A DNA stretch of 56,901 nt from an uncultured Prochlorococcus sp. (GTDB taxonomy: Bacteria; Cyanobacteriota; Cyanobacteriia; PCC-6307; Cyanobiaceae), in the NCBI GenBank assembly GCA_902624105.1, contig CACNWH010000006.1, positions 1-56,901 of the forward strand. The letters run 5' to 3'. The translations under genes and the position numbers were made by a program. Shown here one piece after another: positions 53,821 to 56,294 of this stretch. The notes under the pieces are model-generated. The model was not told the DNA's origin. It saw only the letters and a program-made list of their open reading frames with translations, and searched no databases. Within the stretch, counting starts at the first letter, position 1. Each line of letters opens with the position of its first letter.

Positions 53821-53962
53821 ACAAAAAAAATTGTCAATATCAAACCAAGATTAGTCCTTTAGAGCCATTAATTTACATAAAATTTACTTTAAATAATAAT
53901 TAAATAAATATTAAATTTTAATTTCAAAATTAATCTCATAGACATGAATATAAAGTCTAGTT

Positions 53963-53968
53963 TATAAT
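53963..53968 (+). promoter_or_regulatory. -10 element before the glutamine riboswitch candidate
   Basis: A perfect TATAAT lies 25 bases before the first conserved riboswitch base. The start of transcription would fall near 53975, giving a leader of about 90 bases before the DUF4278 ATG. No clear -35. Inferred. Confidence 0.45.
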
Positions 53969-53990
53969 TAATGATGTAGTTTTACTACTA

Positions 53991-54046
53991 TTCGTTCACC
54001 CTACTAGGGCGCAGTCCGAGCTATACCATGGAACGGGGGATAGCCG
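53991..54046 (+). promoter_or_regulatory. glutamine riboswitch candidate (Downstream-peptide type)
   Basis: The leader forms an H-type pseudoknot. Stem P1 pairs CGTTC (53993-53997) with GAACG (54031-54035). Within P1 a hairpin CCC-TACTA-GGG lies at 53999-54009. A second stem pairs GCTAT (54020-54024), inside the P1 loop, with ATAGC (54040-54044), outside it. Fold and conserved blocks (CGTTCACC, CGCAGTCCGAG, CCATGGAACG) match my memory of the Downstream-peptide RNA, which binds L-glutamine and precedes small ORFs in picocyanobacteria and cyanophages. It would tie the DUF4278 peptide to nitrogen status. No covariance search was run. Confidence 0.75.
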
Positions 54047-54063
54047 TGTTGTTAAATCGAATC

Positions 54064-54237
54064 ATGACTTCACTAACTTACAGAGGTAAATCTTATACCC
54101 AAAACAATTCAAACTCCCAAAATTCATTTGTAGAATTGACCTATAGGAGGAATGTTTATATAAATAGAAAAAAGGAGTTTTCTTCAAAACAAGATCTAGT
54201 TACTCTCAAATACAGAGGAATTGAATACGAAAAATAA
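54064..54237 (+). CDS. DUF4278 peptide controlled by the riboswitch candidate
   Basis: A 57-residue basic protein with two copies of the LTYRG motif characteristic of DUF4278: TSLTYRGKSY at the N terminus, a related ELTYRRNVY in the middle, and LKYRGIEYEK at the end. The family is small, mostly cyanobacterial and uncharacterised. An earlier in-frame ATG at 54028 lies inside the riboswitch aptamer and is not a likely start; the ATG at 54064 is preferred. It has its own promoter, leader and terminator, so it is a stand-alone unit. Glutamine control suggests a role in nitrogen metabolism, possibly as a protein-binding regulator. Confidence 0.82.
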   Translation: MTSLTYRGKSYTQNNSNSQNSFVELTYRRNVYINRKKEFSSKQDLVTLKYRGIEYEK

Positions 54238-54250
54238 ACCTTAAAACCTT

Positions 54251-54278
54251 AATCCTCCCAGTTGGGGGGATTTTTTTT
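54251..54278 (+). terminator. Rho-independent terminator of the DUF4278 unit
   Basis: A 9-bp stem (AATCCTCCC at 54251-54259 with GGGGGGATT at 54264-54272, one G-T pair) and a 4-base loop are followed by a run of T to 54278. It is the strongest terminator I see in the window and ends the short transcript 13 bases after the stop codon. Confidence 0.9.
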
Positions 54279-54307
54279 AGCTATATTTTATTTAAAAATT
54301 AAAAATT

Positions 54308-55102
54308 ATGCCCGAAGATTGTTGCAGTGTTTCAAACGTAAGTAATGAAACACATAATCCTAATCATAAAATTGCTATACAGGAAAGATATGGAGCTGCT
54401 GCAATTGAAAAAGAAAGCTGCCTTTGTACCCCAGTCTCATTTAATCCAAAATATCTTGAGGTGATTCCAGAAGAAGTCATTGAAAGAGATTACGGATGTG
54501 GAGATCCAACTAAATGGGTAAAACTAAATGATGTAGTTTTAGATCTTGGAAGCGGTAGCGGCAAAAATGCATTTATTTGTGCTCAAATTGTTGGCAAGGG
54601 AGGTCAAGTTATAGGAGTTGATCAGAATCAAGATATGCTTAATCTATCAAGAGAATCAATTGAATATGTTGCCAAAAAAATTGGTTATAAAAATACAAAA
54701 TTTATTGAAGGTTCCATTGAGAAGTTAGATGAAATAGATATAAATTTGAACCCAATCATTAAAGATAAATCAATCGATATTATTTTAAGTAATTGTGTTT
54801 TAAATTTAGTGAATCCTGATTCAAGAAATAATCTCTTAAAAAACATTAAGAGAGTACTTAAGAGGAATGGCAGGATTGCAATCAGCGATATTGTCTCTAA
54901 TAAAAAAGTACCCCTTGAATTACAGAAGGATCCAGATTTATGGAGTGGTTGTATAAGTGGAGCATGGTACGAGCCAGAATTTATAGAGGACTTCAAAAAG
55001 CTAGGATTTAAAAATCTAAATTTTGCTGAAAGAAGTTCAGAACCATGGAAAGTAATTGAAGATATTGAATTTAGAACTGTAACTTTAGTGGGAAATCTTT
55101 AA
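54308..55102 (+). CDS. ArsM-like SAM methyltransferase
   Basis: A 264-residue methyltransferase resembling arsenite S-adenosylmethyltransferase. SAM motif I is VVLDLGSGSGKNAFICAQ (near residue 77), then GVDQNQDML. The YGCG segment (near residue 62) and SGCISGAW (near residue 217) hold cysteines at places where ArsM binds As(III), and SNCVLNLV is a family motif. An N-terminal MPEDCCSVS adds a Cys pair. ArsM methylates arsenite to less harmful or volatile species; arsenate is taken up as a phosphate mimic in phosphate-poor water. The class V PLP enzyme gene follows after 16 bases. Confidence 0.75.
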   Translation: MPEDCCSVSNVSNETHNPNHKIAIQERYGAAAIEKESCLCTPVSFNPKYLEVIPEEVIERDYGCGDPTKWVKLNDVVLDLGSGSGKNAFICAQIVGKGGQVIGVDQNQDMLNLSRESIEYVAKKIGYKNTKFIEGSIEKLDEIDINLNPIIKDKSIDIILSNCVLNLVNPDSRNNLLKNIKRVLKRNGRIAISDIVSNKKVPLELQKDPDLWSGCISGAWYEPEFIEDFKKLGFKNLNFAERSSEPWKVIEDIEFRTVTLVGNL

Positions 55103-55118: not shown

Positions 55119-56294
55119 ATGAGCGATAATTTACGTAGCCTGATGCCTGGCTTAAAAAATAAATTTTATTTCAACTATGGAGGACAAGGTCCTCTACCCA
55201 AACCATCATTAAATGCAATAACCAAAAGTTGGCAAAAAATTCAGGAATTAGGACCATTCACAGATAATGTTTGGCCTTACCTTAATAAAGAAATAATAAA
55301 AACGAAACAAAAAATATCAGAACAGTTTGGCGTAAAACCAAAAAACATTTCTCTTTCTGAAAATATATCAACAGGGATGATATTACCTCTATGGGGAGTC
55401 AATATAGATAAAGGTGATGAGTTATTAATAAGTGATTGTGAACATCCTGGGGTCGTAGCGGCAAGTAGAGAATTTTGTAGAAGAAATAATCTTAAATTTA
55501 GAATTTTTCCAATTCAAAAAATAAAAAATCTCGATAAAAAAGTAATAATAAATGAACTTGAAAAGTACGTAAATAAAAATACAAAAATTTTTATAATATC
55601 TCACATATTATGGAACTTTGGTTATGAAATGCCTCTGAAAGAAATAAGCATTGAACTCAACCGATTACCCAAAAAACCTTTTCTTCTTGTAGATGGTGCA
55701 CAAAGCTTCGGCCATATAGAAATCAATGAAAAAGTTAAGTTCTCTGATGTTTATGCAGTCACATCTCATAAATGGGCATGCGGTCCTGAAGGTTTGGGAG
55801 CATTTTATGTTTCTGAAAGATTTATTGAAAATAGCAGTCCAACTATTATTGGTTGGAAATCCCTGAAAAGAGAGCAAGGTATTTATAAGCCTCATGAAAA
55901 CTTATTTCATAATGATGCAAGAAAATTTGAAATTGCAACATCTTGCATTCCATTATTATCTGGTTTAAGGCAATCAATTTCTTTAATTGAAAAAGATTGC
56001 AAAGGTTTTAAAAAACATAATTTAATAACATCAATGAGTAATAAATTATGGAATCATTTGAATGAGATTGATGAAGTTAATTTAATTATGAATAGGCCAA
56101 TACGAAATGGAATTATTAGTTTTGATATAAAAAAGATGGATGATAAAAATAATTTGATTTATAAACTTGGATTAAAAAATATTTGGATTAGGGTAATAGA
56201 AGATCCGCAATGGTTTCGAGTATGTATTCATCAGATGACAACTGAAGATGAAATTGAAGTATTAGTTGATGAGATTAAATCTTTTATTTTATAA
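55119..56294 (+). CDS. class V aminotransferase-fold enzyme (cysteine/cystine C-S lyase-like)
   Basis: A 391-residue PLP enzyme of the NifS/SufS superfamily. FLLVDGAQSFGHIEI has the Asp that contacts PLP, and TSHKWACGPEGLGAFYVS carries the PLP Lys (SHK). FYFNYGGQGPLPKPS is the N-terminal segment of the cyanobacterial C-DES-like branch. An active-site Cys loop of the SufS type is not obvious in the C-terminal third, so a C-S lyase is favoured over a desulfurase for Fe-S assembly. It follows the ArsM-like gene by 16 bases and converges with the SDR gene. Confidence 0.8.
   Translation: MSDNLRSLMPGLKNKFYFNYGGQGPLPKPSLNAITKSWQKIQELGPFTDNVWPYLNKEIIKTKQKISEQFGVKPKNISLSENISTGMILPLWGVNIDKGDELLISDCEHPGVVAASREFCRRNNLKFRIFPIQKIKNLDKKVIINELEKYVNKNTKIFIISHILWNFGYEMPLKEISIELNRLPKKPFLLVDGAQSFGHIEINEKVKFSDVYAVTSHKWACGPEGLGAFYVSERFIENSSPTIIGWKSLKREQGIYKPHENLFHNDARKFEIATSCIPLLSGLRQSISLIEKDCKGFKKHNLITSMSNKLWNHLNEIDEVNLIMNRPIRNGIISFDIKKMDDKNNLIYKLGLKNIWIRVIEDPQWFRVCIHQMTTEDEIEVLVDEIKSFIL

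Follow-up and report, generated by a model that had tools for sequence, protein, structure and literature searches.

A type 2 glutamine riboswitch and its stand-alone DUF4278 gene in an uncultured Prochlorococcus, with an NtcA-like palindrome at the inferred transcription start

The window (the whole stretch of 56,901 nucleotides analysed here) belongs to a Prochlorococcus-like genome of 1.10 Mb (49 contigs, 67% complete). The locus described here is genuine, conserved and functional in appearance, and belongs to a published class in which a type 2 glutamine riboswitch precedes the gene of a small DUF4278 protein. The aptamer score, the promoter, the terminator and the DUF4278 reading frame together confirm the locus and show that it is not a chance match. 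The pairing itself is already known in picocyanobacteria, whose type 2 glutamine riboswitch has DUF4278 genes downstream (PMC6316151, PMC2864571). The link to nitrogen status drawn in the original prediction from a glutamine riboswitch and its peptide is right but had likewise been published for this group (PMC6316151, PMC2864571). New here are a frame test on an early AUG, a palindrome at the start site and the absence of an IF7-like module. We regard it as quite probable that the gene is monocistronic and on in nitrogen excess, with NtcA repression at the start and translation released by glutamine, and that the DUF4278 protein dampens the assimilation of nitrogen or some linked process.

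The aptamer lies at positions 53990..54044 of the forward strand. It matches the Glutamine-II (Downstream-peptide, type 2) model RF01704 over its full length (model positions 1-60 of 60), scoring 59.2 bits (gathering threshold 33; E 7.6e-12 in the search of the entire window). The assignment of the leader to the Downstream-peptide class, proposed earlier, was thus confirmed by the covariance model. The P2 helix shows compensatory changes: standard pairs of several types each are present at five positions in 121-122 of the 122 distinct cores, counts that somewhat favour pairing because the pairing offset was optimised for each sequence. At the syntenic locus one P2 pair is altered on both sides (GCUAU/AUAGC in the window versus GUCAU/AUGGC in other Prochlorococcus). 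Because the copies were collected with a pattern that demanded the pseudoknot strands CGUUC and GAACG, these are uninformative on conservation. Residues C1, G2, G18, C19, A33, G35, C39, G40, G41 and G42 of the crystal structure (PMC6698751) are all found in the window in an alignment made by eye. Two other Rfam matches, ncr1575 and Phe_leader, are weak and score under the gathering cut-offs of their models; they derive mostly from the terminator and were rejected. The type 1 class (RF01739) was not found in the window's incomplete genome.

RF01704 aptamers are present in 148 of the 151 genomes of the genus (DUF4278 in 140) and in 92 of 151 genomes in a sample of the family. One copy was seen in the window's incomplete genome; six near-complete genomes from the genus carry 4-7 each. 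By analogy with these relatives, the window copy would bind L-glutamine and control its gene: the Downstream-peptide element of a Prochlorococcus strain is described as a gene activator, with expression activated in the presence of glutamine (PMC6316151). Genomes of the HNLC lineage contain a further RF01704 copy (L242, at about 3015 on the - strand; L243, at 3018 on the + strand). This copy is oriented divergently from a second ammonium transporter gene, at a distance of about 330 nt, and has downstream a 52-aa ORF with a PYRRSVY motif and no Pfam match.

A sigma-70-type promoter with 11 of 12 consensus matches is found upstream (53939..53968, forward strand; -35 TAGACA, 18-nt spacer, -10 TATAAT). 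Syntenic orthologues keep TAGACA or TGGACA as -35 and TATAAT as -10. Downstream, a strong intrinsic terminator extends over 54251..54279 of the same strand (hairpin 54251-54272 plus T-run). The peptide unit therefore has its own promoter and terminator, as originally predicted, and it does stand alone. The ORF is enclosed by the aptamer on its 5' side and by the terminator on its 3' side. The gene order is conserved (Mqo, NifU, hypothetical protein, aptamer with DUF4278, ArsM-like, class V aminotransferase) and is retained between the window lineage and more distant Prochlorococcus. The ORF is conserved together with this synteny. The next gene, encoding the ArsM-like methyltransferase, starts at 54308, beyond the terminator. 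This gene and that of the class V aminotransferase (54308-55102 and 55119-56294 of the window) form a pair syntenic with the riboswitch gene.

The gene itself (54064..54237, forward strand) encodes a small protein of 57 aa, identified by its synteny and by a match to the Pfam profile PF14105 (41.7 bits, cut-off 25.3; E 1.5e-10). The earlier description of a peptide with DUF4278 repeats holds for the family; the repeats, however, are three YRG-type repeats within a single DUF4278 domain. The peptide is basic, with a calculated pI of about 9.8 (residues 2-57). Its nearest named relatives are HNLC1 Prochlorococcus (96% identity), together with four uncultured Prochlorococcus genomes. The AlphaFold2 model is of low confidence (pLDDT 70, pTM 0.25). 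A sequence search against solved structures gave no match (best E 3.1), and a search for phage copies of the peptide found none.

The linker between aptamer and start codon (54045..54063, forward strand) is, from its sequence, the presumed expression platform. No clear Shine-Dalgarno was seen in the linker of the window copy. Many non-syntenic copies (e.g. L151, L110, L191) exhibit a Shine-Dalgarno-like GGAG or GAGGA just 5' of the start codon, a motif that the syntenic 57-aa locus does not have. The authors of the crystal structure propose that a blocked ribosome site is made accessible by glutamine (PMC6698751). J1 is the commonest predicted partner of the linker. An alternative pairing of aptamer and linker that would hide the start was considered and rejected: pairing within native combinations does not exceed that of swapped combinations in strength (p = 0.6), and the swap test detected no co-evolving alternative pairing.

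A palindrome, GTAGTTTTACTAC (GTA-N7-TAC), is present at positions 53976..53988 of the forward strand. Comparison of the copies suggests that it is an NtcA-like box beginning at the transcription start. Its longer form, GTAGC-N4-GCTAC (equivalent to GTA-N8-TAC), occurs in 128 of 136 distinct copies where base shuffles would give 2.5, although these copies are related by descent and the 128 are not independent events. In these 128 copies the palindrome is located 17-23 nt upstream of the aptamer. In the MED4 transcript, whose first base is G, the Yfr6 reading frame opens at nucleotide 97 (PMC1242208). Counting back from the ORF of L003, a Yfr6-type copy (19+52+25 nt), brings this G to the first base of the palindrome, a placement with a margin of one or two bases, because linkers differ in length and the count was made on L003 rather than on MED4. 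Transcription would accordingly start at the palindrome, which corresponds to about 53976 in the window. That the PMM1846 promoter contains an NtcA motif had been noted before (PMC6316151). We found no published statement that nearly every copy has the palindrome at its start, the main experimental paper being outside the literature covered. This near-universal start-site palindrome represents a testable second input. A distinct motif, TGAACN[AT]C, precedes the palindrome by 38-41 nt in 47 of 157 copies, where shuffling predicts 0.66. All these copies come from loci other than the syntenic one (e.g. L098, L099, L105) and none has a TAGACA -35.

The spacing of NtcA-regulated promoters is GTA-N8-TAC, whereas the palindrome of the window and of its five nearest relatives has 13 bases, GTA-N7-TAC, one base fewer. 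The window genome keeps a canonical GTATAAACCAATAC (N8) upstream of amt1; with the N7 spacing, NtcA control of the riboswitch gene may have become weak or have disappeared in this lineage. Alternatively, the palindrome might be mainly a 5'-terminal RNA hairpin, contributing for example to transcript stability, rather than an NtcA operator. The arms are indeed complementary over five pairs, more than the GTA/TAC of NtcA (G-U included, positions 4 and 5 pair in 146/146 and 136/146 copies, respectively). Moreover, in the six genomes of the window lineage, where the centre has one base fewer, the inner pair changes between T-A, A-T and C-G and is always matched. However, the inner pair is C-A in 10 of the 146 copies, and a spacing of exactly N8 between half-sites in 128/136 fits a protein dimer and is needless for a loop. 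We consider a mainly RNA role rather unlikely and favour an NtcA operator. A composite view is that in nearly all type 2 copies the palindrome is both NtcA operator and 5' RNA hairpin, forming a double gate for 2-oxoglutarate and glutamine, and that the HNLC-like lineage shortened the site by one base, so that the 2-oxoglutarate gate is loosened or altered at the window locus. This we put forward as a speculative and rather unlikely proposal.

With the palindrome read as an NtcA operator, the gene would be controlled as follows. Transcription would begin at about 53976, on the palindrome. NtcA, active at high 2-oxoglutarate (low nitrogen), would cover the start site and repress, as its motif suggests. 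The 5' part of the transcript would be the type 2 glutamine riboswitch, in which plentiful glutamine would lead to formation of the pseudoknot helix and to translation from ATG 54064; release of translation by glutamine is published for a relative (PMC6316151). The product would be the 57-aa basic DUF4278 protein, which by binding a partner would probably dampen the assimilation of nitrogen or some linked process. Because the NtcA and glutamine layers agree in direction, the gene would be on in nitrogen excess and off in starvation. Glutamine binding, activation and lower expression on nitrogen starvation are expected here from the literature on relatives; repression of this start by NtcA, the way in which translation is released and the role of the protein are what we infer for the window. 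The mechanism is weakened by the N7 palindrome, by the want of a clear Shine-Dalgarno and by the swap test, which supports no hiding helix.

Three known systems resemble the locus. MED4 PMM1846 has the same aptamer class, a stand-alone DUF4278 gene downstream and an NtcA motif in its promoter region (PMC6316151, PMC2864571); the likeness is one of layout. The window copy differs in coming from a lineage near HNLC1 Prochlorococcus and in its GTA-N7-TAC palindrome. Yfr6 shares the leader layout of start palindrome, aptamer and short YRG-repeat peptide (PMC1242208). It is a paralogous copy whose RNA is reduced on nitrogen depletion (PMC1242208). However, Yfr6-type peptides have 33 aa and two repeats and are encoded at another locus, while the window peptide has 57 aa and three repeats. 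The third system, gifB / IF17 of Synechocystis, also has DUF4278 under a glutamine riboswitch and is on in nitrogen excess (PMC6316151), but it combines a type 1 riboswitch (RF01739) with a C-terminal IF7-like module, whereas the window has type 2 and no such module.

IF17 is a glutamine synthetase inactivating factor, and the peptide could be of the same type, made in nitrogen excess to bind and inhibit the enzyme. The N-terminal part of IF17 consists of DUF4278, and the IF17 gene is likewise controlled by a glutamine riboswitch (PMC6316151); the peptide is small and basic. However, this N-terminal part is dispensable for the function of IF17 and promotes its stability (PMC6316151), and the 57-aa peptide stops after DUF4278, without the C-terminal IF7-like module that defines IF17-type members. 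A profile of this module, built from the C-terminal parts of long DUF4278 proteins of 14 cyanobacteria, found it in none of 151 Cyanobiaceae genomes. The same profile recovered the module in three other cyanobacteria used as positive controls (E 1e-20 to 1e-34), of which G158 and G167 also contributed rows to the profile and G171 is independent of it. IF17-type inhibition of glutamine synthetase by the peptide therefore appears unlikely on comparative grounds. The family-wide absence of the module argues that the effector, if the peptide is one, works differently.

The original prediction also pointed to an earlier ATG inside the aptamer as a possible ligand-gated start, a suggestion which the comparison does not support. 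This AUG (54028..54030, forward strand) corresponds to A33-N34-G35 in the numbering of PMC6698751. It is structural and probably not a start codon: in the crystal structure A33 pairs with G42 and G35 takes part in a base triple (PMC6698751). Among 122 cores, position 33 is always A and position 35 always G, while position 34 is T in 84, A in 29, G in 6 and C in 3; the window aptamer has U at this variable position. Of 117 distinct copies at other loci, 80 carry the AUG: 9 of these read openly in frame into the peptide, 9 share its frame but meet a stop, and 62 are out of frame. Within the syntenic lineage, 17 of the 19 distinct copies read from the AUG into the peptide in an open frame; these copies share recent ancestry, and the syntenic orthologues L033, L048 and L050 have AGG instead. 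With A33 and G35 invariant, N34 variable and the frame lost outside one lineage, AUG 54028 is best interpreted as incidental to the aptamer and not as a conserved start. That it is a genuine start, at which glutamine gates initiation of a 69-aa protein, would agree with the open frame of those 17 copies but hardly with the remainder of these observations, and is most improbable. Comparison of the copies instead supports ATG 54064 as the start codon.
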